From NCBI GenBank assembly GCA_945860515.1, contig CAMARI010000003.1, positions 1-49,590 of the forward strand: a stretch of DNA of 49,590 nt, written 5' to 3'. Below are positions 1 to 27,569 of the stretch, in pieces (the first letter of the stretch is position 1; every line of letters begins with the position of its first letter). This DNA is from Polaromonas sp. YR568 (lineage in GTDB: Bacteria; Pseudomonadota; Gammaproteobacteria; Burkholderiales; Burkholderiaceae_C). Under the pieces are notes generated by a model. That model searched no databases. It was not told where the DNA came from and was given only the letters and a program-made list of their open reading frames with translations. A program made the position numbers and the translations under genes.

Positions 1-47
1 GACTCGCCCTCTAAGTGGCGAGAAACAAAACGTAGTTTTTCATCCAT
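1..47 (-). mobile_element. Start of an IS481-like transposase gene, cut by the window edge
   Basis: On the minus strand an ATG at 47 opens a frame reading MDEKLRFVSRHLEGES that runs off the left edge. This resembles the N-terminus of IS481-type transposases (DDE family), which begin with a similar amphipathic helix before a helix-turn-helix. A purine-rich stretch (GGAGTGTCAG) lies upstream of the ATG. Only 15 residues are visible, so the family assignment rests on recall of a short motif and completeness cannot be judged. Confidence 0.55.
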
Positions 48-148
48 TTTCTGACACTCCTTCCAAGGCATAGAGAGCTCCTCCTATGCCAAAAAACTGT
101 AAAGGATGTGTCCGGTATAAACTGTTAACTATCTATCAATATGTTCAA

Positions 149-180
149 AGCCCTTGCAGAAATGCAAGGGCTGTTTATTT
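149..180 (+). terminator. Rho-independent terminator hairpin
   Basis: A perfect 10-bp stem (AGCCCTTGCA pairing with TGCAAGGGCT) closes a GAAA tetraloop and is followed by GTTTATTT. The U-rich tail is on the plus strand, yet no plus-strand gene ends nearby. It may have served a gene now lost or lying left of the window. On the minus strand the tail is TTTGAACAT, so weaker termination of the cyclase fragment is possible. Confidence 0.7.
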
Positions 181-251
181 CTAGCTCAAATATTTGCATC
201 AACTCATCGAAATAGAACAGTCACAACGCTCAACTAATTGAGATGCGATCG

Positions 252-731
252 TTAAGCATTCTGCAAAGCATCATCAAAAATAGCCACTGCTCTGGTCCAA
301 CCTGCTGAAGCACCGCGAATTTTGTGGGGAAAACAGCTAATGAAAAAACCACTACTGGGCAGGGCTTCAAGGTTGTGCAGTTTTTCCAAATGACAATAAC
401 CAATGTCGCGCCCTGCCTTGTGGCCTTCCCAAATCAAAGCCGCATTACCCGACTCAGCATACTTTTTCGCCGTATGTACAAAAGGCGCATCCCAACTCCA
501 AGCATCTGTGCCGGTCAAGCGTACGCCACGCTCCAACAAATACATGGTGGCCTCATAGCCCATGCCACACCCACAAGACACATAGTCGGGTTGACCGTAT
601 TGCATACCCGCACGGGTGTTGACGACCACAATTTCCAAGGGCGACAAGTTGTGACCCATGCGCTTGAATTCAGCTTCCACCTCTGAAGCAGTCACCACAT
701 GGCCGTCGGGTAAGTGTCGGAAATCCAACAA
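252..731 (-). pseudogene. Cyclase-family (kynurenine formamidase-like) hydrolase, 5'-truncated
   Basis: The frame encodes 159 residues matching the C-terminal two thirds of cyclase-family hydrolases (PF04199), metal-dependent amide or ester hydrolases usually 210-260 residues long. Recognisable parts include LDFRHLPDGHVVT near the start, the GTDAWSWDAPF segment and the GASAGWTRAVAIFDD tail. The N-terminal third, with the HxGTHxDxPxH metal-binding motif, is absent. An in-frame TAA sits just upstream of residue 1, where only a TTG could start translation. The break abuts an IS OrfA stump at 758, so a mobile-element event probably removed the 5' end. It lies downstream of leuD on the same strand and was probably the last gene of that operon. 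Catalytic activity is unlikely. Confidence 0.8.
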
Positions 732-832: not shown

Positions 833-1435
833 TCAGTCAATTCTCTGCAGCCAAGGCGTTTTTATCGCCACTACAGCCTCGTGGGCAGCCAGTGCATCGG
901 CGTAGCGCAATGTTCGAGTGATGTCATCTTCACCGGACAACAGTTGCGCTAAATGTCCGCGCGCCATTTCAAACTTGATCTTCAACCCATGCGGTGTTAC
1001 CACCTCACAATTTGTAATATCCATGTCGAGCACGGATCCATCGCCGTTGATCTGTTGCGTCAGAACCAAGTGGTCAATCAGTGATACCGTCGCTGTGACT
1101 AGACCATTTTTGACCGCATTATTTCGGAAAATATCCCCAAAAGACAGCGCCACAACAGCTTGAATTCCATAGTCGGTCAGTGCCCATACAGCGTGTTCGC
1201 GCGACGACCCACAGCCGAAATTTCGGCCCGCGATCAGGATGCGGGTCGCGCTTCCTGCGCTGACAAAAGAGGCGTCTGGGTTGTTGGCGGCGACCCAGTC
1301 AGCAAACAAGTAACGTCCCATGCCCTGACGCACTGTGGTTTTGAGGTACCGAGCCGGGAAGATGGCATCGGTATCAATGTCGGCACGCTGCAGTGATGCC
1401 ACGGGGCCTTTGACGCGCGTGATGCCTTGGCTCAT
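833..1435 (-). CDS. leuD: LeuD-type (isopropylmalate isomerase family) small subunit, divergent
   Basis: This 200-residue protein is the swivelling small subunit of an aconitase-family hydro-lyase that pairs with LeuC. Visible motifs are DIDTDAIFPARYL (about 20-32), GRNFGCGSSREHAVWALTDYG (about 70-90) and GDIFRNNAVKNGL (about 100-112). It differs from anabolic LeuD: the usual NGLDxIGLTL segment near the C-terminus is replaced by SGEDDITRTL. Its ATG overlaps the leuC stop (ATGA), so the two are translationally coupled. No leuA or leuB is nearby. The neighbours are catabolic enzymes, so the substrate may be a substituted maleate rather than isopropylmalate (inference). Family certain, substrate uncertain. 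Confidence 0.88.
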   Translation of the reverse strand: MSQGITRVKGPVASLQRADIDTDAIFPARYLKTTVRQGMGRYLFADWVAANNPDASFVSAGSATRILIAGRNFGCGSSREHAVWALTDYGIQAVVALSFGDIFRNNAVKNGLVTATVSLIDHLVLTQQINGDGSVLDMDITNCEVVTPHGLKIKFEMARGHLAQLLSGEDDITRTLRYADALAAHEAVVAIKTPWLQRID

Positions 1436-2847
1436 GACAAAAACTCACGCGGGTCGGTTAGCGCACCGCGCAGGGCGGAAGCGGCCACAGCGGCAGGGCT
1501 CATCAAATGGGTCCGCCCACCTTGACCCTGTCGATTTTCAAAGTTACGGTTGGACGTAGAGGCACTTCGCTGCCCGGGTGTCAGACTGTCGCCGTTCATG
1601 CCCACGCACATGGAGCAGCCAGACTCGCGCCACTCAAATCCTGCATCGACAAATATCTGGGCTAAGCCTTCTGCTTCTGCCGCACGCTTGGTCATGGAAG
1701 AGCCAGGAACCACCAGACCGCGAAGGCGGGTAGCAATACGTCTACCTTTAACCACGCTGGCTGCCGCGCGCAGGTCCTCAATTCGGGCATTGGTACAAGA
1801 ACCTATAAAGGCCACATCGATGGAAATACTGGCAATAGATTGTCCAGAGCGTAGCCCCATGTAAGCCAGTGCGGCCTCAAACCGAGCTTGCTCCAGCAGG
1901 TTGTCCTCAGCGCCAAATGAGGACGGAACTATTTGGTCAAAGTGGGCGCTGTCTGCGGGTGTCGTGCCCCAAGTCACCAGCGGCTGAATAAAATTCGCAT
2001 CAATCGTCTCGAGTCTGGCAAAGTCGCCGTTGACGCCGCTGTTGTCAGTTTTGAGACTGCGCCATGCTTCTAAAGCTTGATCAAAGTGCGACTTGGCCAG
2101 GCCCGAGACGCGGGGGCGCAGGTATGCCTCGGTAGTTTGATCGGGTGCTATCAAACCAAAGCGCGAACCCGCTTCGATGGTCATGTTGCACAAGGTCAGT
2201 CTGGCGTCCATGGACAGTGCGCTGATAGTCGAACCGAAATATTCGATGGCAAACCCAACGCCACCACTGGTTCCCAATTGGCGAATGATGCCGAGCGCCA
2301 AGTCCTTGGCGTAGACGCCTTGACCGAGCTGGCCATCAACCCAGAGTCCTAGGGTTGCGAGTTTGCGAATCCACAGGCTTTGCGTACTCATGACATGTTC
2401 GGCCTCTGAGGTACCGATGCCCCAAGCCAGCGCGCCTAGCGCACCCAGCGTTGCGGTGTGGGAGTCACCGCAGACAACAGTCGCTCCGGGCAGGATATAA
2501 CCCTGCTCCGGGGCGACAACATGAACAATACCTTGCCGCTTGTCGTCAAGATCAATCAGTCGCATGCCAGTCTGTTTTGCATTGGCGCGCAAGGTCGCAA
2601 TCTGCACTGCGCTCTCAGCGTTAGGGATGTGCGTGTTGCGGTCTGGCGTTGTTGGGACGTTGTGGTCTTGGATCGCGATGTGGCGCTCGCTGGATCGCAA
2701 GACCCGTCCCGACATGGCCAGTCCGGCAAAAGCCTGCGGGCTGGAGACTTCATGCACAAGATGCCGGTCAATGTAGACAAGGTCTTCGCCGTCTTCGTTA
2801 CTGGCGACCACATGGGTTTGCCAGATCTTGTCGAACAGGGTGCTCAC
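1432..2847 (-). CDS. leuC: LeuC-type (isopropylmalate isomerase family) [4Fe-4S] large subunit
   Basis: Starting from the GTG at 2847 (VSTLFDKIWQTHVV), the protein has 471 residues, the usual LeuC length; the open frame further upstream is a shadow of the hydrolase gene. It shows the aconitase-family GDSHTATLGALG motif and the cluster cysteines in GSCTNARIEDL and CSMCVGMN. With LeuD it would reversibly hydrate or dehydrate a substituted malate in the cytoplasm. It begins 38 bp after the MBL hydrolase and overlaps leuD by 4 bp. The context of monooxygenase, amidase and lyase suggests a catabolic hydratase, comparable with dimethylmaleate hydratase of anaerobic nicotinate breakdown (inference). 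A second leucine-pathway LeuCD copy is the alternative. Confidence 0.88.
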   Translation of the reverse strand: MSTLFDKIWQTHVVASNEDGEDLVYIDRHLVHEVSSPQAFAGLAMSGRVLRSSERHIAIQDHNVPTTPDRNTHIPNAESAVQIATLRANAKQTGMRLIDLDDKRQGIVHVVAPEQGYILPGATVVCGDSHTATLGALGALAWGIGTSEAEHVMSTQSLWIRKLATLGLWVDGQLGQGVYAKDLALGIIRQLGTSGGVGFAIEYFGSTISALSMDARLTLCNMTIEAGSRFGLIAPDQTTEAYLRPRVSGLAKSHFDQALEAWRSLKTDNSGVNGDFARLETIDANFIQPLVTWGTTPADSAHFDQIVPSSFGAEDNLLEQARFEAALAYMGLRSGQSIASISIDVAFIGSCTNARIEDLRAAASVVKGRRIATRLRGLVVPGSSMTKRAAEAEGLAQIFVDAGFEWRESGCSMCVGMNGDSLTPGQRSASTSNRNFENRQGQGGRTHLMSPAAVAASALRGALTDPREFLS

Positions 2848-2884
2848 TGGATTCTTACTCTGTGTGGCTGTAACAGTTGCTGGC

Positions 2885-3769
2885 TCAGGCGTACTTAAAT
2901 CTGAAGTGGTCGCTCTTGGCGACGATACGTCCCGCTGTCGGAGAGGGGAAATGACCGCTGAACAGCAGGGTCGGCGTGTCGGCCAGCCTGTGCACCAGCT
3001 CAGATCGCGTCTGTGCCGCCTGCACGGAGTCGTGACAAAACCGTGATGACAGCGACAGGTCAATCAGTTGCGCCGGCGTGTGCAGAATGTCACCGGCAAA
3101 CACGGCATGCGCCCCTTGGCTGCGTGTATCCAGCAGGCAGTTGCCTGCGGTATGGCCGTGCGCATCATGCAACTCGATACCGGCTTCGAACTCAAAACCA
3201 GAGTTCACCATCATGGCCTGACCCGCATCGACTACCGGCAGCACACTGTCGGCAAACGAGCCATGGTTAGGTGCGTCCAGGCCACGGGCCAGCGCGTGGC
3301 GGTGAGCCTGTTCCCAGTGTTCGTATTCGGTCTTGGCAAATACGTAACGTGCCTTGGGAAAGGTCGGCACCCAGTGGCCATCTTGCAGGTAGGTGTTCCA
3401 ACCGACGTGGTCGGCATGCATGTGGGTGCAGCAGACAAAGTCGATGTCTTGCGGCTGCACACCAAGGCGCTTCAGGTTCTCAAGGTATTTGTAATTCTGT
3501 CGGTGCCACGAAGGCCGCAAAGACCGCTCCTTGTCATTACCCACACAGGCATCGATCAATATCGTATGGCTTGGCGTTTTCAGGATGTAGCTGTGGAAGC
3601 TCATGTTGACGCGGTTGTCCGCTGTAACAAACGCAGGTTTAAGCCAGGCCGCATGCTGTTCGACCTGTTCAGGCGTGATGCCTGGAACCACAAAATCAAG
3701 AGGTGAAAATGCGCTTTCGCTTTCAAGCACCAGATCGACCTGGAACAGGCCGATTTTTTGTGTCTTCAT
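2885..3769 (-). CDS. Metallo-beta-lactamase-fold hydrolase
   Basis: The 294-residue protein carries the MBL signature THMHADHVGWN (HxHxDH at about 116-121), a further His in HDAHGHTAGN (about 206), a metal-bridging Asp in FAGDILH (about 226) and a late His in SGHFPSPT. These make a complete dinuclear Zn site. Members of this lactonase-like group open lactones or hydrolyse esters and amides; 4-pyridoxolactonase of vitamin B6 breakdown is one precedent. No signal peptide is seen, so it is probably cytoplasmic. Its ATG overlaps the stop of the LivH stump (ATGA). Position between the racemase-family gene and leuC suggests hydrolysis of a ring-cleavage intermediate, which is inference. Confidence 0.85.
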   Translation of the reverse strand: MKTQKIGLFQVDLVLESESAFSPLDFVVPGITPEQVEQHAAWLKPAFVTADNRVNMSFHSYILKTPSHTILIDACVGNDKERSLRPSWHRQNYKYLENLKRLGVQPQDIDFVCCTHMHADHVGWNTYLQDGHWVPTFPKARYVFAKTEYEHWEQAHRHALARGLDAPNHGSFADSVLPVVDAGQAMMVNSGFEFEAGIELHDAHGHTAGNCLLDTRSQGAHAVFAGDILHTPAQLIDLSLSSRFCHDSVQAAQTRSELVHRLADTPTLLFSGHFPSPTAGRIVAKSDHFRFKYA

Positions 3770-3849
3770 GGGCTAGGGCAGCAGCCTTGCGCCGCCAGTG
3801 CGTAAAGGCCGCCTGAAATCAGGCCATTGGTAATCTGACCGACAATCAT
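3766..3849 (-). pseudogene. LivH permease N-terminal stump (27 codons)
   Basis: The frame reads MIVGQITNGLISGGLYALAA and then QGCCPSP before TGA. The first 20 residues match the start of branched-chain/aromatic acid ABC permeases (LivH), which normally continue for about 290 residues of membrane segments. Everything after the first helix is gone and the last residues look out of frame. The stop overlaps the ATG of the MBL gene, so the reading chain is preserved. This suggests that a livHMGF block was deleted from the operon and only the coupling end kept. Confidence 0.7.
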
Positions 3850-3862
3850 GGTTTGGTGCCTA

Positions 3863-4603
3863 TCAGTAGTGAGACAGAAGCTTGCCGAAGCCCTGCAGCT
3901 TGTCGTTGATGCCGACGGCGCGCAGGGCGTGCCAGTAGGTTGCCGTGTTGATGGCAATGACTGGCTTTCCCAAATAAAACTCAGCCGTGGCTGCGAAACG
4001 AACCATGGACAGATTGGTGCCAACCTGAACAATGGCATCGATATCGTCGCCATCAAGTTGCTTGAGCGTGTCACGGCACATCGCGTCGGTTGTGTGAGCA
4101 ATCTGTACCGGGCTAGGCCGCTGCAGACAAATATCTCGGACGACGGTAAAGCCACAGTCCTGATAAAACCGGCGGACTTGGTCGTTGGCGACCGGAAAGT
4201 AAGGCGAAAAGAAAGCAATCCGTTTAGCTTTGTAGACATTGAGCGCGGCTTCTGTCGCAAAGGATCCGCAAGAAACTTCGACCTCGGCGCGCTCACGCAT
4301 CATGTTGAGGTAAGTTTCAGCGCCTTTTCGACCATCCCAAAAGGTTGCTGCGGACATCCCCATCACGAGGTACTGCATTTCGCAGCTTTTGAGAACGTCT
4401 ACCGCCTGCAGGGTGTTTCCCTGAATATTCTTAACCAATTTCAGAAATTCTTCATTAGTGTTAACAGGATCATTGGGAATGATGATGCGGCTGTAATGAT
4501 TGGTGACGCCTACCGGCCGCATGTCGTCAAAGTCGGGTTGGACGATGGTGTTGGTTGAGGGACCAAGCGTTCCAAATTTCATGCGGTAACCAAGATGGTC
4601 CAT
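3863..4603 (-). CDS. Asp/Glu racemase-superfamily protein (maleate isomerase / arylmalonate decarboxylase-like)
   Basis: This 246-residue protein begins MKFGTLGPSTNTIVQPDF after a short lead, the typical start of the maleate cis-trans isomerase and arylmalonate decarboxylase group. These enzymes use one or two cysteines as acid/base or nucleophile. At the two positions where I expect them the sequence reads VMGMSAATFWDG (Ser at about 84) and VQVGTNLSM (Asn at about 197), so both look replaced. A subfamily using Ser or Thr, a different reaction, or misplacement on my part are all possible. It lies 2 bp after the amidase gene, the same pairing as nicF/nicE (maleamate amidase, maleate isomerase) of nicotinate breakdown. 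Confidence 0.8.
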   Translation of the reverse strand: MDHLGYRMKFGTLGPSTNTIVQPDFDDMRPVGVTNHYSRIIIPNDPVNTNEEFLKLVKNIQGNTLQAVDVLKSCEMQYLVMGMSAATFWDGRKGAETYLNMMRERAEVEVSCGSFATEAALNVYKAKRIAFFSPYFPVANDQVRRFYQDCGFTVVRDICLQRPSPVQIAHTTDAMCRDTLKQLDGDDIDAIVQVGTNLSMVRFAATAEFYLGKPVIAINTATYWHALRAVGINDKLQGFGKLLSHY

Positions 4604-4605
4604 GG

Positions 4606-5229
4606 CTAGACTTTCGAAAGTAGTATTTGAAGAAAAGTATCTCGCGGCATCACATCTGCATATTTCTGGCGCATGTCGAAAAGATTGGCATCATGGGGCT
4701 CGATGGCCCGGTCACCAACGCAGTCCTCGATCACGATGGTGCGAAAGTTGAACTGCATGGCGTCCACGACGCTTGCGCGTATGCAGCCGCTGGTGGTGCA
4801 CCCCACAATGACAGCGGTGTCAACACCACGCAGATGAAGCCACTCAGACAGGCCGGTCGAAAAAAATGCAGAGGCGGATGTCTTGCGCAACACCCATTCA
4901 CCTGCGGTCGGCGTCAATTCTGGAACAGTTTGCGAAGCATGCGCATGTTCCGTTAATTGCAGTAGCGGCGGGACCTTCAGACAAAACACGTTTTTATTGG
5001 CACCATCGTCTGCAAAAACCACTCGCGTGTGGACGACCGGAAGCTGCGCTTTTCGAAAGGCCGCCAACAAAGGAACTGTCTCCTTAACAGCCTGAACGAT
5101 GTGAGGACCACCAAACTGCGTCTCGTCCACAAATCCGTTGACGAAGTCCACAAGGATGAGGCCGCAGCGCGAACCGATACCTGAGGTGTTCCCCAGGTTT
5201 TGTTTGCGATAGATGTCTTCCTTGTTCAC
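4606..5229 (-). CDS. Isochorismatase-family amidohydrolase (maleamate amidase / N-carbamoylsarcosine amidase-like)
   Basis: The 207-residue protein shows the cysteine-hydrolase triad: Asp28 in LVDFVNGF, Lys116 in LRKTSASAF and Cys149 in GCTTSGCIRASVVDA, each in the family's usual setting. The family hydrolyses amides such as maleamate (NicF) or N-carbamoylsarcosine to the acid and ammonia. The start is a GTG overlapping the TGA of the lyase gene (GTGA), indicating coupling. With the racemase-family protein downstream it resembles the last steps of nicotinate-type degradation, implying a nitrogen-containing substrate (inference). Length and triad suggest an active enzyme. Confidence 0.87.
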   Translation of the reverse strand: MNKEDIYRKQNLGNTSGIGSRCGLILVDFVNGFVDETQFGGPHIVQAVKETVPLLAAFRKAQLPVVHTRVVFADDGANKNVFCLKVPPLLQLTEHAHASQTVPELTPTAGEWVLRKTSASAFFSTGLSEWLHLRGVDTAVIVGCTTSGCIRASVVDAMQFNFRTIVIEDCVGDRAIEPHDANLFDMRQKYADVMPRDTFLQILLSKV

Positions 5230-6134
5230 GGCTTCACCACTTCGGTGGCATGCATTTTGTCGAACTCACTGACCCAATCGAAACCCATCAGCTTTGAAAA
5301 ACCCTGGAAATCATGGAGCGGCTGATCAAGGTTGGCACTTGAACCTGTCGCTTTGATGTGCTCATAAACATTTTTAAACGCGGCACCTGCCGACAAGAAT
5401 GCAGCCGACGGAAAGATGACCAGGCCGAAACCGATACGCTGCAGCTCCTCCTTTGTCAGCACTGGGGTGCGCCCCGTCTCAACCATGTTGGCCACCAGCG
5501 GTAGGTCAAATGCTTTGCCAATGATTTCCATCTCCTCAATCGACTCAGGACTTTCGATAAACAAAATGTCGGCACCCGCTTGGGCGTATTGCTCCATGCG
5601 ACGCAGGGCTTCATCCAGACCATGAACGGTGCGTGCATCCGTGCGGGCAATGATCTGGAAGTTCTTGTCGGTGCGGGTTTCCGCAGCCACCTTGATTTTC
5701 GCAACCATGTCGGCCATTGGCACCACCCGGCGGCCCAGCATATGACCGCACTTTTTGGGAAATTCTTGGTCCTCTAATTGGATCGCGCAGGCACCGGCGG
5801 CTTCATAACCGCGAACGGTGTGCATGACATTGAGTAAACCACCATAACCTGTATCGCCGTCACAAATCAAGGGGGTGTCGGTGATGCTGACGAATTGTGT
5901 GACGCGGTTGACCATGTCGGAGTAGCTGGCCAGACCGGCGTCGGGCAAGCCCAAGTAGGAGGCAACGGTGCCATAACCAGTCATGTAGAGGGCTTCAAAT
6001 CCCATCTGGTCTGCCATCTTGGCAGAGACCATCTCAAAAACACCCGGCGCAACAACGAGGTGTCCTTTGGTAAATCGGGCTTTGAGTTCCGCACGCTTTT
6101 GCGTGGCGGTTTTTGTGCTGAGGCCTTGCTTCAT
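5226..6134 (-). CDS. Isocitrate lyase / PEP mutase-superfamily C-C lyase (dimethylmalate lyase-like)
   Basis: The 302-residue TIM-barrel protein has ICDGDTGYGG (Mg-binding Asp residues), QLEDQEFPKKCGHMLGRR and IIARTDA. The KKCGH loop with its catalytic Cys marks lyases such as isocitrate, methylisocitrate and 2,3-dimethylmalate lyase, and separates them from Cys-less phosphonomutases. The reaction would split a substituted malate or isocitrate into pyruvate or glyoxylate plus a second acid. A LeuCD-type hydratase in the same operon could supply that substrate, as in the dimethylmaleate hydratase/lyase pair known from anaerobic nicotinate fermentation. Its ATG overlaps the monooxygenase stop. 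Confidence 0.85.
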   Translation of the reverse strand: MKQGLSTKTATQKRAELKARFTKGHLVVAPGVFEMVSAKMADQMGFEALYMTGYGTVASYLGLPDAGLASYSDMVNRVTQFVSITDTPLICDGDTGYGGLLNVMHTVRGYEAAGACAIQLEDQEFPKKCGHMLGRRVVPMADMVAKIKVAAETRTDKNFQIIARTDARTVHGLDEALRRMEQYAQAGADILFIESPESIEEMEIIGKAFDLPLVANMVETGRTPVLTKEELQRIGFGLVIFPSAAFLSAGAAFKNVYEHIKATGSSANLDQPLHDFQGFSKLMGFDWVSEFDKMHATEVVKP

Positions 6135-7327
6135 AAGATGGACTCCGCGCGTTCTAACGCATCAATCATGGATGTTTTACGAAGGTAATCCTTCGAGGCG
6201 GCAGGACTTGCTGCGATAGCGCGCAGTTCGTTCTGGGTTTTACGGCGGGTATCAGGATCGCGCTCTTCGATATTCTTTTTGTTGCGTGCCGTGTTGGCAT
6301 TGATGTATTCGATGGCCACCGACCGCCGCTGACGCTCATAGCGGTCCAGTAGGTCAGGTGATGCCCCGGAAATCAAAATATCAACCAGTTTGTCCGAAAG
6401 ATTGAAAGCATCTTGAACGCCGCCGTTCATGCCCATACCACCGATCGGATTGTTGATGTGAGCAGCATCGCCGGCAAGCACCACGCGGCCGCGACGGAAC
6501 TCTTTTGCAACCCGCTGGTGGACCTTGTAGAGGGTCCGGTGCACGGTGTTGTAAGGGGTGTCTTTGGGCAGAAGATTTTGTAGCCGCGTTTGAATAGACT
6601 CGTCGGTCATGACTTCTTCATCTGTCTCTTCCAGTCGAGTGGGAAAAAGAACGCGCCACAAAGTCGGAACCCGCAGCAGAACACACCATTCTTCAGGATC
6701 CGAGACGTAGTTGACATACGACAATTTCGGTAAATGGTCAGCGTATTCGAAGTCGGTCGACACCGACAGAAAACGTTCTGGATAAGTAAAACCTTCAAAC
6801 TCGATGCCTAGGGACTGACGCACAGCGCTTGATGCACCATCTGCGCCAATGAGGTAATTGCCTGTAAAGGCCGTCATGTGGCCATCAATCTTGACGTTTG
6901 CTGTCACGCTCTGGGCATCTTGCGTCACTGTTTGCATTTCTGCACCCAGAACAATTTTGACGTGTGGCAACAAGGCAAGTCGATCCAGCAGCAATGTGTT
7001 GAGTTTCCATTGCTCGCATTGCAGCCGAAACGGGTGCTGTGTTTCGCCTTCCAGCAGGGACATGTCGAACTCGGCAATCAGGCCCTCCTTGCGATCGCGC
7101 TGTTGGGTGTAGCGCGCTACCAGGCCTTGCGCTACAAGCTCGTCTGTCAATCCGAATCGTGCCAGCATGTCAAGTGTCGGAGGGTGAAAGGTAGAGGCGC
7201 GCAGGTCATCTTGTGGTTTGGTGTGACGTTCAAAGACTGTCACTGAGATGCCGGCTGTTGCTAAAGTCAGCGCGCTCACCAGTCCCACTGGACCCGCGCC
7301 GGAAATCAATACATGAGGTGAATTCAT
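6131..7327 (-). CDS. FAD-dependent aromatic-ring monooxygenase (group A hydroxylase type)
   Basis: The 398-residue protein has the FAD-binding GAGPVGL near its start (about 10-16), a DG motif in LIGADGASSAVRQSLG (about 160) and GDAAHINNPIGGMGMNGG (about 287-304), the second FAD/ribityl motif. These define single-component flavin hydroxylases acting on phenols or hydroxypyridines with NAD(P)H and O2. As the first gene of the operon it probably performs the initial hydroxylation or, like 2-methyl-3-hydroxypyridine-5-carboxylate oxygenase, a hydroxylation with ring opening. About 190 bp upstream lie before the LysR stop; a TTGACT -35-like hexamer is present there but I see no good -10. Substrate unknown. 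Confidence 0.88.
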   Translation of the reverse strand: MNSPHVLISGAGPVGLVSALTLATAGISVTVFERHTKPQDDLRASTFHPPTLDMLARFGLTDELVAQGLVARYTQQRDRKEGLIAEFDMSLLEGETQHPFRLQCEQWKLNTLLLDRLALLPHVKIVLGAEMQTVTQDAQSVTANVKIDGHMTAFTGNYLIGADGASSAVRQSLGIEFEGFTYPERFLSVSTDFEYADHLPKLSYVNYVSDPEEWCVLLRVPTLWRVLFPTRLEETDEEVMTDESIQTRLQNLLPKDTPYNTVHRTLYKVHQRVAKEFRRGRVVLAGDAAHINNPIGGMGMNGGVQDAFNLSDKLVDILISGASPDLLDRYERQRRSVAIEYINANTARNKKNIEERDPDTRRKTQNELRAIAASPAASKDYLRKTSMIDALERAESIL

Positions 7328-7520: not shown

Positions 7521-8432
7521 TCATGTGCCCGCATGTAAGCGCAAGCCATCCATAAATGCCTTCAACATGGGTGACTCGGCTGTTTCGCGACGACGAATAA
7601 CGCCGACATTTCCCTCTCTAAGGTAAGGCAAGGGAAGAGGGACGACCTGCTTGAGCGTCTGAAAATAGTGCATCAACTTGGCGGACATAGGGGCGACCAA
7701 ATCACCATCCTGAAGCATGGTCACAATGACGAGCGTTGACCCAGTCTCTACGCGATAACGCGGAGCGGGCTGACCTGCCAAAGCAAGTTCGTGCTCAAGT
7801 TCACGTCGAAGAGGACTGACTTTGGGCGGAATGATCCACGGGAAACGAAGCACATCTGGCCAATCTACTTTTCGTTTTTTGGCCAATGGATGGTTGGTTC
7901 CCACCACCACACGAATTTGCTCCGGGTAAAGGATGTCGCAGCGTACGCCTGCATCAAGTCGTGCCTGGTCGGTGCGGGTAATCACAAGATCTACACGTCC
8001 CTCTTGCAGCTGCGGCAACAAGGTATCAAGTCGATTTTCGATGATATTTAAGTAAGCATCAGGAAATTTCTTCCTGAAATATCCAGCTGCGTGAGGCACC
8101 AGCCCGGTTGCAACTGTTGGTGTGGTGCCGACCACTAAATTACCAGAAGCACCTGTGGACATCAAGCCAATGGTCGCTTGTGTGCGATCAAGTTCCCCGA
8201 TGATGGCTCGGGCATGTGAGACCAGCGCGGTGCAAAATTCGGTGGGCGTTAAACCTCGTGAGTTACGTTTGAAGAGTCTAACGTTCAGGTCTTCCTCCAA
8301 CTCTCCCAACCATTTCGAGAGGCCGGGCTGAGTGACACCCATTTGGCTTGCCGTGTGGCTGATGTTACGGGTCTCGTAAAGTGCAACCAGCAAGTACAAC
8401 TGACGCATCCGAAGTCTTTGAGTCCACTCCAC
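7521..8432 (-). CDS. LysR-family transcriptional regulator
   Basis: This 303-residue regulator has the N-terminal winged helix-turn-helix (LYLLVALYETRNISHTASQMGVTQPGLSKWLGELEE split over about 12-48) and an effector domain starting about residue 90. The start is the GTG at 8432: AAAGGT sits at a proper distance upstream and the MEWTQRLRMRQLYLL N-terminus fits the family. A symmetric T-N11-A site lies immediately upstream at 8448-8472. It precedes the catabolic operon on the same strand and is divergent from the Bug gene at 8660, so it may control either or both, with an aromatic acid or ring-cleavage product as inducer (inference). Confidence 0.92.
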   Translation of the reverse strand: MEWTQRLRMRQLYLLVALYETRNISHTASQMGVTQPGLSKWLGELEEDLNVRLFKRNSRGLTPTEFCTALVSHARAIIGELDRTQATIGLMSTGASGNLVVGTTPTVATGLVPHAAGYFRKKFPDAYLNIIENRLDTLLPQLQEGRVDLVITRTDQARLDAGVRCDILYPEQIRVVVGTNHPLAKKRKVDWPDVLRFPWIIPPKVSPLRRELEHELALAGQPAPRYRVETGSTLVIVTMLQDGDLVAPMSAKLMHYFQTLKQVVPLPLPYLREGNVGVIRRRETAESPMLKAFMDGLRLHAGT

Positions 8433-8659: not shown

Positions 8660-9625
8660 ATGCGACTGCTTTGGAATGTTTTGCTATTGACGGCTTGCAC
8701 TTTGTCCGGACAGAACGCTTGGTGTCAAACCTATCCGTCGCAGCCCATCAAGCTGGTCATGCCATTTGCCCCTGGTACGGGCGCTGAAGTAGCGCTGCGT
8801 GTGATTGCAGAGCGTCTTGGCAATGCACTTAATCAACCTGTGGTGATTGAAAACCGTCCGGGAGCCGGATCGACCCTCGGTGCGGATCTGGTGGCCAAGT
8901 CCGCGCCAGATGGATACACGCTGGCAGCCTCTTTTAATTCATCGATTGCCCCTGGGCCTTTGATGTATGCGAAGCTTCCTTACGACCCGATCAAGAGCTT
9001 TCATCACATCGCACTGGTCGGCGTTTATCCCCAATACGTGATTGTAAAAACCGACCACCCAGCTCAAACAATGCGGGAGCTCTTGGCCATAGTCAAGGCC
9101 AAGCCAGGGACTGTGAATTACGCGTCTGCGGGCGTTGGGACGTCAGGTTTCCTGGCGGCTGAACTGCTCAAGCAAACGCTTGGCTTGAATATGACCCACA
9201 TCCCCTACAAGGGCCCCTCTCCGGCCATTGCCGATTTGTTGGGCGGTCGGCTGGACATGGTTTTGACGGCAAGTGCGTCTGAGCTGGTTAAGGCCGGTAA
9301 AGTTAGGGTTCTGGCCGTGACGAGCGCCAAGCGCATGCCTGCATTTCCTGACGTCCCCACCTTGGATGAAATTGCCCCTGGTGTGCAGGCGGTTTCGTGG
9401 CTTGGCATTTCTGCGCCGGCGCAAACGCCGCGAGCGATCACTTCTCGCATCGAAAAAGAGTTGCTTGCTATTTTGAATACGCCAGAAATGCAAGCCCGTT
9501 TATCTGACCCGGTTGTCGGCATGTCTCCCATGGCGCTCGGGCCAGACAAGTTTTTAGAGTTCATCCAAAACGAAATTCGGGTCTGGTCACCCGTGATCAA
9601 GTTAGGCAATATACGTGTGGACTGA
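8660..9625 (+). CDS. Bug/TctC-family periplasmic substrate-binding protein
   Basis: The 321-residue protein has a signal peptide (about 1-22, ending NAWCQ before TYPSQPIKLVMPFAPG) and typical Bug motifs: VVIENRPGAGSTLGAD, KSAPDGYTL, THIPYKGPSPAIADLLGGRLD and FPDVPTLDE. Such proteins bind carboxylates for tripartite tricarboxylate transporters. No TctA or TctB membrane gene is nearby, the common orphan state in Burkholderiales. It is divergent from the LysR gene, whose candidate operator lies about 190 bp upstream, so its ligand may be linked to the operon at 833-7327. Ligand unknown. A GGAGG-like sequence before the ATG supports the start. Confidence 0.92.
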   Translation: MRLLWNVLLLTACTLSGQNAWCQTYPSQPIKLVMPFAPGTGAEVALRVIAERLGNALNQPVVIENRPGAGSTLGADLVAKSAPDGYTLAASFNSSIAPGPLMYAKLPYDPIKSFHHIALVGVYPQYVIVKTDHPAQTMRELLAIVKAKPGTVNYASAGVGTSGFLAAELLKQTLGLNMTHIPYKGPSPAIADLLGGRLDMVLTASASELVKAGKVRVLAVTSAKRMPAFPDVPTLDEIAPGVQAVSWLGISAPAQTPRAITSRIEKELLAILNTPEMQARLSDPVVGMSPMALGPDKFLEFIQNEIRVWSPVIKLGNIRVD

Positions 9626-9655: not shown

Positions 9656-10432
9656 TTATGGCATGTAAGTGCCGCCGTTGACATGCAGTGTCTGCCCCGT
9701 CATGTAGGCGGCCGCTTCAGACAACAGAAACATCACCGGCCCAACGATGTCCTTGGGTACTGCAATTCGCCCCAAAGGGACAACTTGACCATAACTGGCC
9801 GTGTCCAAACTAGAAGCTCTTTGCTCGTCGGATCTGCCGGTGCCACCTCGCAAAAATGCAGTGTCTACTGCGCCCGGAGCAACAGCGTTGACCCTCACAG
9901 AGGGGGAATTTTCAAGAGCCAACTGTTTGGTCAACAAGATAATCCCGGCCTTGGCCGGTCCATAGGCTCCGAAGTTGGGCCGAGCCCATGCACCCAGACC
10001 CGAGGCAATATGCACCAGGCTCGCTCGGTCCGATCGGTGCAGCAAGGGCAGGACCGAACGTGAAATATAAAACGCAGCGTCAAGGTTGCCATGAATCACG
10101 TCCTGCCACGTTTCTAGGGAAGTGCTTGCCAAACTTTGTGGCGCAGCCATGAAACCAACCAAGTTGACGCATGCATCGATTCCTCCAAGCAGTTGTGCGG
10201 CTTGCGTCATGGCGCGTTCGACGGAGTCGGGATCTTTCGCATCAAGAGAAAAATGTTCAACGCCTTCAACGCGGTAACGTTCAATGGATTCAGGAAGATC
10301 AAGTATCGTGACATGCATTTTCTGTCGCAGTGCCTCAAGGGCTAAGGCTCGCCCGATACCGCCACATCCTCCCACAATGACAAGTTTCAAATATGGCCGG
10401 ATGGTTAGATCGTTTATTAACGAAGGATTCAT
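9656..10432 (-). CDS. Short-chain dehydrogenase/reductase (SDR)
   Basis: The 258-residue Rossmann-fold oxidoreductase shows the cofactor motif GGCGGIGRA (about 21-29), CVNLVG in place of the usual NNAG, the catalytic Ser in HIASGLG, and YGPAK (Tyr-x-x-x-Lys). The C-terminal HVNGGTYMP tail is classical. An Asp in TILDLPES after strand beta-2 suggests NAD preference. It converges on the Bug gene (30 bp apart, no clear terminator) and is divergent from the liv operon at 10569. It may oxidise an alcohol intermediate of the compound imported by that transporter (inference). Confidence 0.88.
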   Translation of the reverse strand: MNPSLINDLTIRPYLKLVIVGGCGGIGRALALEALRQKMHVTILDLPESIERYRVEGVEHFSLDAKDPDSVERAMTQAAQLLGGIDACVNLVGFMAAPQSLASTSLETWQDVIHGNLDAAFYISRSVLPLLHRSDRASLVHIASGLGAWARPNFGAYGPAKAGIILLTKQLALENSPSVRVNAVAPGAVDTAFLRGGTGRSDEQRASSLDTASYGQVVPLGRIAVPKDIVGPVMFLLSEAAAYMTGQTLHVNGGTYMP

Positions 10433-10568: not shown

Positions 10569-11483
10569 ATGCAGTTTTTACAGCAAATCATTAACGGTCT
10601 GATGTTAGGCGGCATTCTTGCCTTTGTGGCGGTGGCTTTCACGCTCACCATCGGAATGTTAAATTTTTTAAATTTCACGATTCCGGCTCTTTTCATGATC
10701 GCTGGCATGGTGACTTGGGCCCTGTCGTCATCGGGGTCTAACTTGCTGGGCTGGGGATGGCATTGGGCTTGGGCTGCAACTGTCGGAATTGGCTTTGCCG
10801 TGCTGGCCTCACTGCTGATCGAGCGCTTTACTTACCGTTACATGAAGGCTCGTTTTGGCGACGCAACTGAGCATGCCTTGCCGCTCGTGAGCTCGTTGGG
10901 TTTTCTTATTTTCTTCGAGCATTTGGCAGCATCCATCTGGGGCAGTGATCCACAGCGGTTTGAACTTCCCTTCATGGACACGAATTTGCGATTCGGAGGA
11001 CTGATTGTTGGTATTCCGCATTTGATTAGTTTGGTTCTTGCCATTGTCCTTGTCGCGGGCCTTAACACCTTGCTGGTACGCACCAAGGTGGGCAGAGCAT
11101 TGCGTGCGATTGCTGAAAATCCGAATGCCTCAACCTTGATGGGGGTCGAGGTGCAGCATATTGTTCCGGTGGTCTTTGTCATTGCTGGGACACTTTCTGG
11201 CTTCGCCGGTATTCTTTATGCGGCAAGCTACGGCACGGTCACGCCTTTTATGGGAGATGCGATCGCCACAGATGCCATTGCGGCTATGGTGTTAGGCGGG
11301 CTGGGCAATATCTGGGGTGCCATCGCTGGGGGTTTGCTCGTCGGCTTAGTCAAAATTTTGGCGATCAGTACCTTCGGCGCTGAGATAGAGAAAATTCCGG
11401 TGTGGGGACTGCTTTTGGTGATACTGGTCATTCGACCTTCGGGATTGTTCGGTCACACCAACATCGGCAAAGGCAAATTCTGA
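10569..11483 (+). CDS. livH: Branched-chain/aromatic acid ABC transporter permease LivH
   Basis: The 304-residue inner-membrane protein has about eight hydrophobic segments and begins MQFLQQIINGLMLGGILAFV, the usual LivH start. The motif AENPNASTLMGVEVQHI is the cytoplasmic coupling loop that contacts the ATPases, and AMVLGGLGNIWGAIAGG is conserved near the end. It opens an operon with livM, livG, livF and a binding-protein gene. Its stop overlaps the livM start (TGATG). The operon lacks amino-acid genes and lies among catabolic genes, so an aromatic or dicarboxylic acid is as likely a substrate as leucine. Confidence 0.9.
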   Translation: MQFLQQIINGLMLGGILAFVAVAFTLTIGMLNFLNFTIPALFMIAGMVTWALSSSGSNLLGWGWHWAWAATVGIGFAVLASLLIERFTYRYMKARFGDATEHALPLVSSLGFLIFFEHLAASIWGSDPQRFELPFMDTNLRFGGLIVGIPHLISLVLAIVLVAGLNTLLVRTKVGRALRAIAENPNASTLMGVEVQHIVPVVFVIAGTLSGFAGILYAASYGTVTPFMGDAIATDAIAAMVLGGLGNIWGAIAGGLLVGLVKILAISTFGAEIEKIPVWGLLLVILVIRPSGLFGHTNIGKGKF

Positions 11484-12379
11484 TGTCCGGCTATGTCAGT
11501 GGTTTGCTTGCCGTGTTTGCGATCAATACAGTTATTGCATACTCTGTTTTTATTCCCGCTTCTGCAGGTTTATTGAATCTGGGTGCTGCTGGTTTTGTTT
11601 TAGTGGGTGGTTATACGGCCGGAGTCCTGACATCGCAGTTTGAATTTCCCCTTTGGTTTGCGGTCATGCTGGGCTCTGCTTTGGCCGGTGTCGTCGCCTT
11701 CTTGATTTCATGGCCCATTTTGCGGACGCGCGGCGTTTACATGGTTCTGGCGACGTTTGCATTTGCCGAGGTTGTGGCTGGAGTCTTGCTCAATATTCCT
11801 GCTCTGGGCGGTGCGGCAGGTTTGTCGGTGATGGCCTATGCCGGCCTGCAAACCGTTTTGCCGGTGACACTGGCCGTTGTTGTCTTTGTTGCTTGGTTGA
11901 TGTCAACCCGCTTTGGTTTGTCTGTGCGCGCCATCCATGACGATGAAAGCGTGGCTCACCTGTTTGGCGTGAACTTGCGCGCGACTCAGGTGACTGCGCT
12001 GACCATCGGCGGCGCCATCGGCGGCATGGGGGGGGCTTTGCTGGTTCACCAGTTCAACTTTATCGACGTGCAATCCACGGGTGTATTGTTCAGTATTTAC
12101 GTGCTGCTGTATGTGCTGATGGGGGGAACCCAAACGGTATGGGGCCCCATTTTTGGTGCGGCATTCTTCACTTTGGCGCCCGAGGCTCTGCGCACTGTAT
12201 CGCAGTTCAGCCCAGCGCTGAAGTTTCTCGAGAATGGACGCTACATGGTTTTCGGTATTGCCGTGGTGCTGCTCATGATGTGGCGGCCTCAAGGTGTGAT
12301 CACACGCACGATGCTTGAGCGCATACGCGCCTCTCTGTCCCTTTCGCCGTTAGACAGAAGCAAGAGGGCCGGGTCATGA
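11483..12379 (+). CDS. livM: ABC transporter permease LivM
   Basis: Read from the ATG at 11483, overlapping the livH TGA, the protein has 298 residues and multiple membrane spans. The open frame extends upstream into livH but that part is not a credible membrane N-terminus. LivM hallmarks are ASAGLLNLGAAGFVLVGGY near the start, RTRGVYMVLATFAFAEV, the coupling loop AIHDDESVAHLFGVN, and MGGTQTVWGPIFGAAF. It forms the second half of the membrane channel with LivH. Its end overlaps livG by 4 bp (ATGA). Confidence 0.9.
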   Translation: MSGYVSGLLAVFAINTVIAYSVFIPASAGLLNLGAAGFVLVGGYTAGVLTSQFEFPLWFAVMLGSALAGVVAFLISWPILRTRGVYMVLATFAFAEVVAGVLLNIPALGGAAGLSVMAYAGLQTVLPVTLAVVVFVAWLMSTRFGLSVRAIHDDESVAHLFGVNLRATQVTALTIGGAIGGMGGALLVHQFNFIDVQSTGVLFSIYVLLYVLMGGTQTVWGPIFGAAFFTLAPEALRTVSQFSPALKFLENGRYMVFGIAVVLLMMWRPQGVITRTMLERIRASLSLSPLDRSKRAGS

Positions 12380-13137
12380 GCGCAGCGCTGCAACTTTCCG
12401 GTGTGAGCAAGTCGTTTGGAGGCCTGAAAGTTATTGATGACGTCAGCTTCGATGTCAGGCGTGGCAGCAGAACAGCCTTGATTGGTCCGAACGGAGCGGG
12501 GAAGTCGACTATTTTCAACTTGGTTTCTGGCGTTTACCCGATAGACGCTGGACGCATTGTGGCCGATGGGCATGACATCACACACATGTCCGTTGCCAAG
12601 CGGGTGGGTCATGGGGTGGCACGTTCATTTCAAAATATTCGTCTTATGCCGCATTTGTCGACCATTGAAAACGTGATGCTTGGCGAGCACCATTACAGCT
12701 CGCCGTTCGCGCTGGCCCGTGGGACAAAAGCCTCAGAAAATGCACGAGCTGCTTTGGCCGATGCAGGCCTGGGAACTTATCCCGGCCAGGTCGTCGCTGA
12801 CTTGCCCTACGGCATTCAAAAACGAATTGAGGTGGTACGGGCCATCATGGCTAGACCCAGTATTTTGCTGCTCGATGAGCCTGCCGCAGGCCTTAACAGT
12901 GCAGAGACTGTTGAACTCAGGTTGCTGCTGGAGCGTCTTTCAAACACAGGTATGACGCTGTTCGTGGTCGAGCACGACATGCCTTTTGTTCGCAACCTCT
13001 GCGACCACGTGGTGGTCCTTAATTTCGGTCAGAAAATTTTTGAAGGTACTCCCGATGCGGTTCACCGGGACCCCGGCGTAATGGAAGCCTATCTGGGAAC
13101 ACCGGCCCCTCTGCCAGGAGTTGTTCATGCTGCTTGA
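12376..13137 (+). CDS. livG: ABC transporter ATP-binding protein LivG
   Basis: The 253-residue ATPase has Walker A GPNGAGKST (about 37-45), a Q-loop in ARSFQNIRL, the LivG-type signature LPYGIQKRIEVVRAI in place of canonical LSGGQ, Walker B SILLLDEPAAGLN and the switch His in VVEHDM. It powers the LivHM channel together with LivF. It overlaps livM by 4 bp and livF by 11 bp, so the operon is translated as a coupled unit. Confidence 0.9.
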   Translation: MSAALQLSGVSKSFGGLKVIDDVSFDVRRGSRTALIGPNGAGKSTIFNLVSGVYPIDAGRIVADGHDITHMSVAKRVGHGVARSFQNIRLMPHLSTIENVMLGEHHYSSPFALARGTKASENARAALADAGLGTYPGQVVADLPYGIQKRIEVVRAIMARPSILLLDEPAAGLNSAETVELRLLLERLSNTGMTLFVVEHDMPFVRNLCDHVVVLNFGQKIFEGTPDAVHRDPGVMEAYLGTPAPLPGVVHAA

Positions 13138-13828
13138 AGCGCGCGGACTGCAGGTGACGTATGGCCCCACTGAGGCTGTCAAGGATATGTCTCTTCATAT
13201 CGCCGAGGGTGAAATCGTGACGGTGCTTGGAGCCAATGGCGCTGGAAAAACATCCTTGCTCAAGGCTCTGCAAGGCGTCGTCAAACCGTCTCGCGGCGAA
13301 GTATTTTTCAAAGCCCAATCGGTGATCCGGCAAAGCGCTGCTTGGCGCGTGGGACAAGGTTTGGTCCTGGTGCCGGAAGGTCGACAAATCTTTGTCAGCC
13401 TCACGGTTCACGACAACCTGCTGATGGGCGCTTACACGCGAACAGACAACCCCGAACGTGAGATAGAGGCGATCTACGACCGTTTTCCTAACTTGGCGAA
13501 ACGTCGCCACATGCTCGCGTCAGTGCTGTCCGGCGGAGAGCAACAAATGTTGGCTATCGGTCGGGCTTTGCTGAGTAGGCCCGCTTTGATGATGCTCGAT
13601 GAGCCTTCATTGGGATTAAGCCCCTTGCTGGTTCAATCCTTGTTTGCACTGATCAAAGACTTGCACCGCGGCGGGCTGTCTATCTTGCTCGTCGAGCAAA
13701 ACACACACATGGCTTTGGCTACCGCCCACAGGGCCTATGTGCTTGAACTAGGGCGGCTGGTTTTGGAAGGCAGCACCAGCGAGTTGGCATCAGACCCTCG
13801 CATGGCGGCGGCTTATCTGGGTAGTTAA
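13127..13828 (+). CDS. livF: ABC transporter ATP-binding protein LivF
   Basis: The ATG at 13127 (MLLEARGLQVTYG) is preceded by AGGAG at 13116-13120 and is a better start than the TTG two codons earlier. The 233-residue ATPase has Walker A GANGAGKTS, signature LSGGEQQMLAIGRAL, Walker B LMMLDEPSLGLSP and switch His within LLVEQNTHMAL. It is the second nucleotide-binding subunit of this transporter. The binding-protein gene follows 15 bp later. Confidence 0.9.
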   Translation: MLLEARGLQVTYGPTEAVKDMSLHIAEGEIVTVLGANGAGKTSLLKALQGVVKPSRGEVFFKAQSVIRQSAAWRVGQGLVLVPEGRQIFVSLTVHDNLLMGAYTRTDNPEREIEAIYDRFPNLAKRRHMLASVLSGGEQQMLAIGRALLSRPALMMLDEPSLGLSPLLVQSLFALIKDLHRGGLSILLVEQNTHMALATAHRAYVLELGRLVLEGSTSELASDPRMAAAYLGS

Positions 13829-13843
13829 ACAAAGGGGTTTTCA

Positions 13844-15016
13844 ATGAAAATGCGCTTCTTTCTTGGTTATGTAGTCGGCTGTGTGGCACTGCCTGTGATG
13901 TCACAAGAGTTGGTTTTGGGCTTGTCCCATGCAAAAACTGGACGCTATGCCAGTGTCGGGGTGGGTACCGAAATCGCGGTCGATATTGCCGTGGCTGAAA
14001 TCAATGCCGCCGGCGGTATCAATGGCAGGAAACTCCGGGTTGAAAAATTTGATACGGGTGGAGAAGCTAAGAATGCACAGATCGCGGTGCAAAAATTTGT
14101 TGAAGACACCAAGGCCCTAGGTATCATTGGCCCATTCTCCAGTCAGGAAGCCCAAGTCGCCTTTGCTGCTGGTGAACGACTTGAAATCGTGCAAATTCCA
14201 AATGCTGCTACAGCCCCCGGTTTAACCAAAGACCGTAAATGGGCCTTCCGCGTTACTGAAGATGAAGGCAAGCAGTTTGGGCGTCTGCTCAAGACAATGG
14301 CCGTCAAGGGTGGCATCAGCAACAAGACTGCTGCCGTGATGTTCCCAAGTGATGAATTCGTGGGCAAGTCCTTGGCCACTTGGATGCCTAATTTACTGGA
14401 GGCCAATGGCTGGAAGATGGTCATACCAGCAGAAGGCTTCCCGACCAACGCCACTGATTTATCCCCGCATATCACCAAGCTGAAGGGCATTTCTCCAGGT
14501 GTTTTTGCTTTCGCTGGTTTGCCCGAAGGTACTGCCAAAGTGATGAAGGAACTGCGTCGTCAGGGTCATACCAGCACGCTGATTGGTGGACAAATTTTTG
14601 CTGATCCTGACATTGGAAAAGTCTTAGGCTCGGACGGTGAGGACGCAACTTATGTGTCTTGGTACTGGTGGGACGCGAACGACCGGACCCGCCAGTTTGA
14701 AAAGAAATTTTTGGATGAAGCCAAGAAACGTGGGGTCAACAAATCCGGCGCTCATCACGTTGACGCTTCAGCCTACGATATTGTTTATGTCTACGCTGAC
14801 TCCATTCGTCGTGCGAACGTGACAGGGGATGCTGCCAAGGTCAAGGCTGAAAGAACCGCTATTCGCGACAACTTGATGGCCACCAACATCAATGGCGTTA
14901 ACGGCAAAATCTGCTTCAGTCAGGACCGTGATTCAGAATTGCCGGCTTACATTATTCGCCTCAAGAATGGTCAGCGCACATTGCTTGATTCGCATGCACC
15001 AGATGTTTGCAAGTAA
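13844..15016 (+). CDS. Periplasmic branched-chain/aromatic acid-type binding protein
   Basis: The 390-residue type I periplasmic binding protein has a signal peptide (about 1-20, cut near VMSQ/E) followed by LVLGLSHAKTGRYASVGVGTE. Family features are AVAEINAAGGINGRKLR, a GIIGPFSSQEAQVAF ligand loop and YDIVYVYADSIRRA in lobe 2. AAAGGGG stands before the ATG. Position as last gene of livHMGF identifies it as the receptor. Relatives bind leucine, amides, or aromatic carboxylates; the ligand cannot be fixed from sequence. A strong palindromic terminator follows. Confidence 0.9.
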   Translation: MKMRFFLGYVVGCVALPVMSQELVLGLSHAKTGRYASVGVGTEIAVDIAVAEINAAGGINGRKLRVEKFDTGGEAKNAQIAVQKFVEDTKALGIIGPFSSQEAQVAFAAGERLEIVQIPNAATAPGLTKDRKWAFRVTEDEGKQFGRLLKTMAVKGGISNKTAAVMFPSDEFVGKSLATWMPNLLEANGWKMVIPAEGFPTNATDLSPHITKLKGISPGVFAFAGLPEGTAKVMKELRRQGHTSTLIGGQIFADPDIGKVLGSDGEDATYVSWYWWDANDRTRQFEKKFLDEAKKRGVNKSGAHHVDASAYDIVYVYADSIRRANVTGDAAKVKAERTAIRDNLMATNINGVNGKICFSQDRDSELPAYIIRLKNGQRTLLDSHAPDVCK

Positions 15017-24997: not shown

Positions 24998-25117
24998 TAT
25001 TTTTGCTAGGAGTTACCCTCACTAAAAATGTCTCTAAAGCGTCATCTAAAAGTTGTCGCAGAGATCATAGTTCAGGCATCCATTTTCTCTAATCACCCTT
25101 CGAAGGGCCTTGCACAC

Positions 25118-25927: not shown

Positions 25928-25941
25928 TTCCGAGGGTTGAG

Positions 25942-27567: not shown

Positions 27568-27569
27568 TC

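Follow-up and report, generated by a model that had tools for sequence, protein, structure and literature searches.

What is a pair of leucine-isomerase genes doing beside an oxygenase, an amidase and a lyase? The question is raised by a 49,590-nucleotide stretch of Polaromonas sp. YR568 (assembly GCA_945860515.1, contig CAMARI010000003.1, positions 1 to 49,590; this whole stretch is called the window), in which a preliminary description had placed seven packed minus-strand enzyme genes at 833 to 7327 and had proposed that they degrade a substituted N-heterocycle. All seven open reading frames (ORFs) are open, their families are confirmed by Pfam and NCBIfam, and in related genomes the LeuC/LeuD pair (LeuCD) of this operon is a second copy. 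We posit, with our confidence about evenly balanced, that the operon belongs to a catabolic regulon, extending from 833 to about 15997 or 16941, that would degrade a small nitrogen-containing ring or cyclic imide with carbon substituents by the route proposed below. The seven genes are:

833..1435, minus strand: leuD, leuD-type small subunit of a hydratase/isomerase, putative catabolic paralogue (PF00694 90 bits, NF002458 183 bits)
1432..2847, minus strand: leuC, leuC-type large subunit (PF00330 512 bits; GTG start taken at 2847, ORF open to 3063)
2885..3769, minus strand: mbl, metallo-β-lactamase (MBL)-fold hydrolase, lactonase-like, on the YtnP/AidB side (PF00753 74 bits)
3863..4603, minus strand: rac, encoding Rac, of the maleate-isomerase/arylmalonate-decarboxylase fold (Amdase 43 bits; cysteine positions occupied by M83 and G195)
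4606..5229, minus strand: nicF, NicF-like amidase of the isochorismatase family (PF00857 134 bits)
5226..6134, minus strand: icl, lyase of the isocitrate lyase (ICL)/phosphoenolpyruvate-mutase superfamily (PF13714 157 bits, TIGR02317 267 bits)
6131..7327, minus strand: fmo, class-A flavin adenine dinucleotide (FAD) monooxygenase (FMO; PF01494, FAD_binding_3, 235 bits)

By ORF coordinates, neighboring genes overlap by 4 bp at fmo/icl, icl/nicF and leuC/leuD and are separated by 2 bp at nicF/rac, 93 bp at rac/mbl and about 37 bp at mbl/leuC; the overlaps at three junctions argue for a single transcript. No terminator-like site lies in the gaps within the operon, the two minus-strand sites being located inside fmo and upstream of it, and such sites total 6 where 8.6 were expected. 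The cluster genes are under purifying selection, with dN/dS values of 0.03–0.14 for leuD, leuC, rac, nicF, icl, fmo and the adjoining lysR in comparison with three close relatives; mbl, which is unmatched in the loci of those three relatives, gives 0.22 against locus L037 and 0.18 against L045.

LeuCD passes the family scores of leucine isomerases (TIGR00170, 583 bits with a cut-off of 560; TIGR00171, 141 bits with a cut-off of 116), and LeuC has the cluster cysteine motifs GSCTN (349) and GCSMC (410). The preliminary description had stated that its proposal would fall if LeuCD were the only leucine isomerase in the genome and the other genes were not co-conserved with it; in relatives, LeuCD is not the only one. 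Among 21 genomes hand-chosen from the 80 Rac loci described below for searches with LeuC and two other proteins of the window, the operon LeuC is present in eight at 70–89% identity, and each of these has a further long-type LeuC, at about 47–55%; in a ninth genome, that of L101, a LeuC piece of 66% identity lies at the edge of a contig and a separate LeuC reaches 53%. A model search for leuB in the organism's own genome found a full-length relative below the cut-off on contig C100 and a gene end at the edge of contig C130, and the 62-codon fragment from C130 matches the leuB of relatives at 90–97%. With this fragment as the only query, leuC-leuD-leuB was seen in four of the six LeuC surroundings fetched (one each in genomes G200, G203, G204 and G209), and the fragment was unmatched near the long-type LeuC copy of G207 and the short-type region of G204. 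In relatives, then, the operon copy is neither single nor linked to leuB, the two marks by which we would recognize a housekeeping LeuCD.

The operon copy is also distinct in sequence. In a LeuC tree from which rows under 400 amino acids were dropped and in which the protein of L100 was included twice, the nine operon rows form one clade with a branch length of 0.91 and support of 88/96. In LeuD, the combination of V83 and R104 occurs in all nine operonic rows shown and in none of the 17 distinct non-operonic rows, all of which have proline at the first position and tyrosine, phenylalanine, histidine or asparagine at the second (identical segments are shown once, and the L100 LeuD is not among the rows); the alphaproteobacterial LeuD of L101 has the valine and lacks the arginine. 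In L100 (Rhodospirillales), a LeuC of HacA type (TIGR01343, 477 bits) and a LeuD-like match lie between FMO and ICL, with Rac and NicF beside them, which we regard as an independent recruitment. The organism's own genome also has a further aconitase-family gene on contig C7 and, at 2701–5341 of contig C26 (L121), a short-type LeuC/LeuD with a gene for a protein that by eye resembles β-keto-acid-cleavage enzymes and a TctC gene, possibly another module of hydratase and carbon–carbon cleavage.

The lyase has the loop EDQEFPKKCGH from residue 121 as well as DTGYGG and ARTDA, the motifs of the ICL superfamily, and these are mostly kept across its family (exceptions are KRCGH in L064 and ARTDS in L100). 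Its nearest solved chains are 4iqd, named carboxyvinyl-carboxyphosphonate mutase, and the petal death protein 1zlp. A separate protein, AceA-like by eye, is encoded on contig C82 and a further superfamily member on C34. In alignment with the AceA-like protein, the pocket residues W, F and T are replaced in the lyase by F192, I240 and P242. These lie near the F, L and P of methylisocitrate lyase at the same positions, and the comparison suggests a substrate whose carbinol carbon bears a carbon group and a 2-oxoacid product such as pyruvate.

Rac is the one truly odd member of a set that otherwise combines known enzyme families in an undescribed way. Its AlphaFold model (predicted local distance difference test score 79.5) has as its best Foldseek matches the maleate isomerases 4fq5, 2xec and 2xed, with template modeling scores of about 0.72–0.82. 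The protein that the preliminary description called racemase-family has, however, lost both catalytic cysteines: where isomerase-like relatives have ACLVA and SACVQMPS, Rac has GMSA and QVGTNLSM, so that M83 and G195 occupy the cysteine positions, and both columns are invariant in the 29 aligned rows. We therefore reject maleate isomerase and arylmalonate decarboxylase, by their known mechanisms, as functions of Rac, and the loss of both cysteines makes the usual maleate-to-fumarate ending unlikely. The cis acid would then remain, and this is the form on which a LeuCD-type hydratase acts. The organism's own contigs C230 (L125) and C134 (L126) carry FMO-TctC-Rac mini-clusters (FMO 41–44%, Rac 32–33% identity), and the Rac of C230 likewise lacks both cysteines. 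This pairing suggests a general FMO–Rac partnership and probably places the action of Rac near the step of the FMO.

The residue-level claims made earlier for the amidase and the MBL hydrolase, as for the KKCGH of the lyase, were borne out. The amidase has an intact triad of D28, K116 and C149, and its best PDB match is the Bordetella NicF (3ot4/3uao, 227 bits), with which it shares 106 of 195 residues (54%). The MBL hydrolase has the metal motif HMHADH from residue 116; its best NCBIfam model is YtnP, at 79 bits with a cut-off of 425, and a function as 4-pyridoxolactonase is rejected (NF047925, 42.9 bits, cut-off 325). FMO has the Rossmann GxGxxG motif as GAGPVG, and GDAAH, as in class-A FAD aromatic hydroxylases, and its nearest solved relatives are PnpA and HspB (6ain, 214 bits; 7da9, 210 bits). 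A distant FMO relative, at 44–45%, is found in L164 (Agrobacterium vitis pAt) and L165 (a Mariluticola plasmid), both of which have an AA_synth-family protein, an amidohydrolase and a DUF4286 protein as neighbors; this neighborhood differs from that of the window and might reveal the substrate class of the FMO.

The preliminary description had called for a search for conserved neighborhoods, and that search supports a core set. A scan of GTDB genomes with Rac gave 414 relatives, of which we retained the 80 best; as many of these lie on short contigs, the counts are lower bounds. Presence was scored by tblastn at identity thresholds that we chose, genes in relatives were called with a home-made heuristic, and sequences with X or a stop, with less than 75% coverage or in duplicate were dropped from the family alignments. 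Per 80 Rac loci, NicF was found in 57, FMO in 56, ICL in 54, MBL in 16, the second short-chain dehydrogenase/reductase (SDR) of the window in 14, its PuuE-like gene (pda) in 12, leuC in 10, livH in 10 and leuD in 9 (slightly different filters give 55 for icl and 17 for mbl). Among the 63 nearest loci (L037–L099), 37 have FMO, ICL, NicF and Rac side by side in this order, and we regard this set as no chance grouping; among 17 distant loci (L100–L116, Rac at 57–62%), FMO occurs in six, NicF in four and ICL in three. The spread is patchy: a Rac-like match is present in 43 of 200 family genomes but reaches 50% identity in only four, one of them the organism's own, and the lyase at E values up to 1e-70 in 12 of the 200, again including its own. 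Looser versions of the set occur on alphaproteobacterial plasmids of Thioclava (FMO, Rac, MBL, NicF and SDR) and Novosphingobium (SDR, NicF, PuuE-like protein 59%, ICL 48%, FMO 46%, Rac 52%). Pond, Baikal or groundwater is named in the titles of several of the relatives' records, and cultured environmental relatives with the core include Limnohabitans sp. 2KL-1 (L079) and Pigmentiphaga kullae K24 (L087), the latter also having LeuCD.

The seven genes first described stand, but the unit is larger, and the earlier description missed an imide-hydrolase relative, SDRs and a transporter. By synteny, it continues beyond 7327 and takes in, as a minimum, everything up to the PuuE relative, whose end is at 15997. 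The additional genes are:

7521..8432, minus strand: LysR-type regulator (family scan; 91–95% identity in L037, L039, L041 and L098; same place in L176)
8660..9625, plus strand: TctC-type solute-binding protein (PF03401 246 bits; 87% in L176)
9656..10432, minus strand: SDR oxidoreductase (family scan; 86% in L176)
10569..15016, plus strand: Liv-type ABC transporter, livH, livM, livG, livF and livK (named by eye and synteny)
15095..15997, minus strand: pda, relative of PuuE allantoinase and cyclic imide hydrolase, candidate ring-opening hydrolase (3cl6 127 bits)
16105..16941, plus strand: second SDR, membership less certain (family scan; in 14 of 80 loci; unmatched in L176)

L176, the stretch of a Comamonadaceae metagenome-assembled genome that holds L098, repeats the order of the window at 80–96% identity (leuD, leuC, rac, nicF, icl, fmo, lysR, tctC, sdr, livH-M-G-F-K, pda), with all five Liv genes in the same order at 89–94% and pda at 96%; there mbl is no part of the operon and is found, together with a second FMO, on the far side of pda. 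L177, which comes from the L039 genome, has a tctC-sdr-livHMGFK-pda-mbl block on a separate contig, near another nicF and an FMO fragment. Because both blocks include pda, the PuuE-like protein is a likely, though not universal, member of the pathway. It has no Pfam match at 0.001 and falls under the cut-off of the PuuE family (TIGR03212, 148.7 bits against 424.6), its solved relative being the PuuE allantoinase 3cl6; in Novosphingobium L161, a 59% relative lies beside nicF, icl, fmo and rac. In relatives, the LeuCD part is accompanied by an aldehyde dehydrogenase in L040 (HpaE-like) and L046, by an α/β hydrolase in the same cluster in L040, and by HisD-family and iron-alcohol dehydrogenases in L087 and L090 (one of each scanned), the dehydrogenases hinting at hydroxymethyl or aldehyde side chains.

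The reactions given next, the sequence in which they follow one another, the substrate and the part played by Rac are all inferred. Uptake would proceed via the Liv ABC system, TctC or both. The FMO would oxygenate the ring, the PuuE/imide-hydrolase relative, perhaps with the MBL hydrolase, would open it hydrolytically, and the SDRs would adjust side-chain alcohols. The NicF-like amidase would then free ammonia and leave a substituted cis-butenedioate (maleate-type) acid, from which, Rac having lost both catalytic cysteines, the trans acid would not be formed in the way known for maleate isomerases. The cis acid would be taken up by the dedicated LeuCD, whose hydration product, a substituted malate, would be split by the ICL-superfamily lyase into a carboxylic acid and a 2-oxoacid such as pyruvate. 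The starting compound may equally well be a cyclic imide, a pyrrole-type ring or a pyridine.

Several known systems resemble parts of this route. The lower pathways of aerobic nicotinate (Nic) and nicotine (HspB-Iso-Nfo-Ami-Hpo) degradation cluster an FAD monooxygenase, a maleamate-type amidase and a maleate-isomerase-fold protein as here, but among the window genes scanned no dihydroxypyridine dioxygenase was recognized, Rac lacks the cysteines, and LeuCD and a carbon–carbon lyase are present in addition. The anaerobic nicotinate fermentation of Eubacterium barkeri likewise passes from a hydratase of the aconitase family to a dialkylmalate lyase of the ICL superfamily, but by an oxygen-independent route with a B12 mutase, in contrast to the oxygenase, amidase and long-type LeuC of the window. 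The methylcitrate cycle shares the logic of hydratase and lyase (methylaconitate hydration, then a methylisocitrate lyase of the same superfamily), but with another hydratase and with no amidase or oxygenase. In fungi, the cyclic imide hydrolase HxnM, reported to be PuuE-related, opens 3-hydroxypiperidine-2,6-dione before an amidase step (PMC9304392). The Aspergillus nidulans hxn pathway to which it belongs resembles the window, by description, in its monooxygenation, ketoreductase step, HxnM and amide hydrolase, but it ends in hydroxyglutarate, and the passages of that source on the pathway mention no LeuCD or lyase (PMC9304392). Within the open-access literature, to which our searching was limited, we found no description of the gene set, in agreement with the preliminary description.

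The following observations weigh against the proposed route. No second long-type LeuC was found in the organism's own assembly, which is 86% complete, so that the earlier condition on a sole leucine isomerase is answered by the relatives and not by this genome; we think that its biosynthetic leuCD has probably been lost to the incomplete assembly or a contig break. The LeuC fork carries a long-branch warning along with its 88/96 support. The lyase falls below the cut-off for methylisocitrate lyase, PrpB (TIGR02317, 266.7 against 354.4 bits), and its best PDB match carries the name of a mutase. The preliminary description had the operon joining an amidase end with a LeuCD and lyase end, and the pairing is supported, with icl in 9 of the 10 leuC loci; LeuCD is facultative, however, as just 10 of the 56 loci with FMO have leuC. 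Similarly, pda is found in only 12 of the 56, and L176 is the only fetched locus outside the window with both leuC and pda. Genome-wide, at 50% identity or more, pda is present in 5 and mbl in 4 of the 21 genomes, and among the eight genomes with the operon LeuC only G202, G203 and G209 have pda or mbl, the other five having neither. Lastly, nine of the 17 distant Rac loci, some on short contigs, hold none of seven scored partner genes, and Rac may therefore also stand apart.

Among the alternatives, an aconitate-type route is rather unlikely. Here pyridine-4-carboxylate or a similar imide would be cleaved to an aconitate-type amide, NicF would release aconitate or methylaconitate, LeuCD would hydrate it and the lyase would cut (methyl)isocitrate. 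The lyase pocket, near that of methylisocitrate lyase, the arginine of LeuD, which could suit an extra charge, and the imide-hydrolase relative are consistent with such a route; however, the genome has its own AceA-like protein (by eye) and the aconitase-family gene on C7, a dedicated pair being needed only for a substituted acid, we identified no upstream pyridine-carboxylate enzymes, and no paper on the isonicotinate precedent was found in the open-access literature. Also unlikely, in our view, is a modified form of the lower pathway of aerobic nicotinate or nicotine breakdown, in which the FMO would form 2,5-dihydroxypyridine, cleavage elsewhere would give N-formylmaleamate, NicF would yield maleate, LeuCD would be a maleate hydratase and the lyase would be incidental. 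The solved relatives of the FMO (PnpA and HspB), the 54% identity to Bordetella NicF, the fold of Rac and the α/β hydrolase in the L040 cluster, of the fold of the nicotinate-pathway deformylase, all fit this variant. Yet no dihydroxypyridine dioxygenase was recognized among the genes scanned, no genome search for one having been made, Rac lacks both cysteines, plain C4 maleate has no need of an alkylmalate lyase, and leuC and icl co-occur in nine of ten leuC loci.

A more specific form of the route that we favor, ring oxygenation and opening followed by LeuCD and the lyase, would degrade dialkylmaleimides or alkylated pyrroles, such as 2-ethyl-3-methylmaleimide from chlorophyll and haem. Ring opening would fall to the FMO together with the imide hydrolase, NicF would yield 2-ethyl-3-methylmaleate, LeuCD would hydrate it, and the lyase, a relative of the petal death protein, would give a 2-oxoacid and a short acid. 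Petal death protein cleaves 2-ethyl-3-methylmalate. We hold this form to be a long shot; if true, it would be a bacterial route mineralizing the remnants of tetrapyrrole pigments, and Rac would be a cysteine-free enzyme with new chemistry.

A pathway like that of vitamin B6, in which an SDR, an MBL lactonase and an FMO act as in pyridoxine breakdown, is very unlikely. The three families do co-occur, MBL has a weak pyridoxolactonase match, and the aldehyde dehydrogenase (L040, L046), HisD-family (L090) and iron-alcohol dehydrogenase (L087) genes suggest hydroxymethyl oxidation, but MBL is far under the pyridoxolactonase cut-off and nearer YtnP and AidB, and the known B6 routes include no step for NicF, LeuCD or ICL. 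Finally, that LeuCD is the leucine-biosynthesis isomerase merely adjoining an unrelated catabolic operon, as its scores above both cut-offs and its status as sole long-type LeuC in its own assembly might suggest, we reject as highly improbable on account of the other LeuC in all eight relatives with the operon copy, the leuC-leuD-leuB order in four, the distinct LeuC clade, the LeuD signature and the leuB fragment on a different contig of the genome itself, which agrees with the earlier view of a catabolic cluster rather than one for leucine synthesis.

The favored route, from ring oxygenation to lyase cleavage, would be an apparently undescribed catabolic pathway spread across Comamonadaceae and other Burkholderiales and into Alphaproteobacteria, in which a leucine-pathway enzyme has been recruited as a catabolic hydratase, and it makes the function of cysteine-free members of the maleate-isomerase fold testable. 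It also counsels caution with the labels leucine biosynthesis, arylmalonate decarboxylase and methylisocitrate lyase for these genes.

Outside the proposed unit, window positions 1–731 comprise the contig edge, a transposase-like start (by eye) and a gene that lacks its first part:

252..731, minus strand: truncated cyclase-family remnant, probably outside the pathway (PF04199 57 bits, profile positions 60–142 of 142)

We rejected this remnant as a pathway deformylase, as it is present in 0 of 80 Rac loci at the threshold used. On the other side, 17114–19534 encodes the large subunit of a molybdenum hydroxylase, rejected as a pathway member since none of the 80 loci has it at 45% identity; L095–L097 carry a 30–31% match to it near FMO and Rac, and Pfam identifies the match in L096 as a molybdenum hydroxylase. 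Further along, at 25028–33045, genes that by eye are citrate-synthase-like, AMP (adenosine monophosphate)-ligase, intradiol-type dioxygenase, fumarylacetoacetate-hydrolase-type and gentisate-dioxygenase-like mark the window as a catabolic hot spot.

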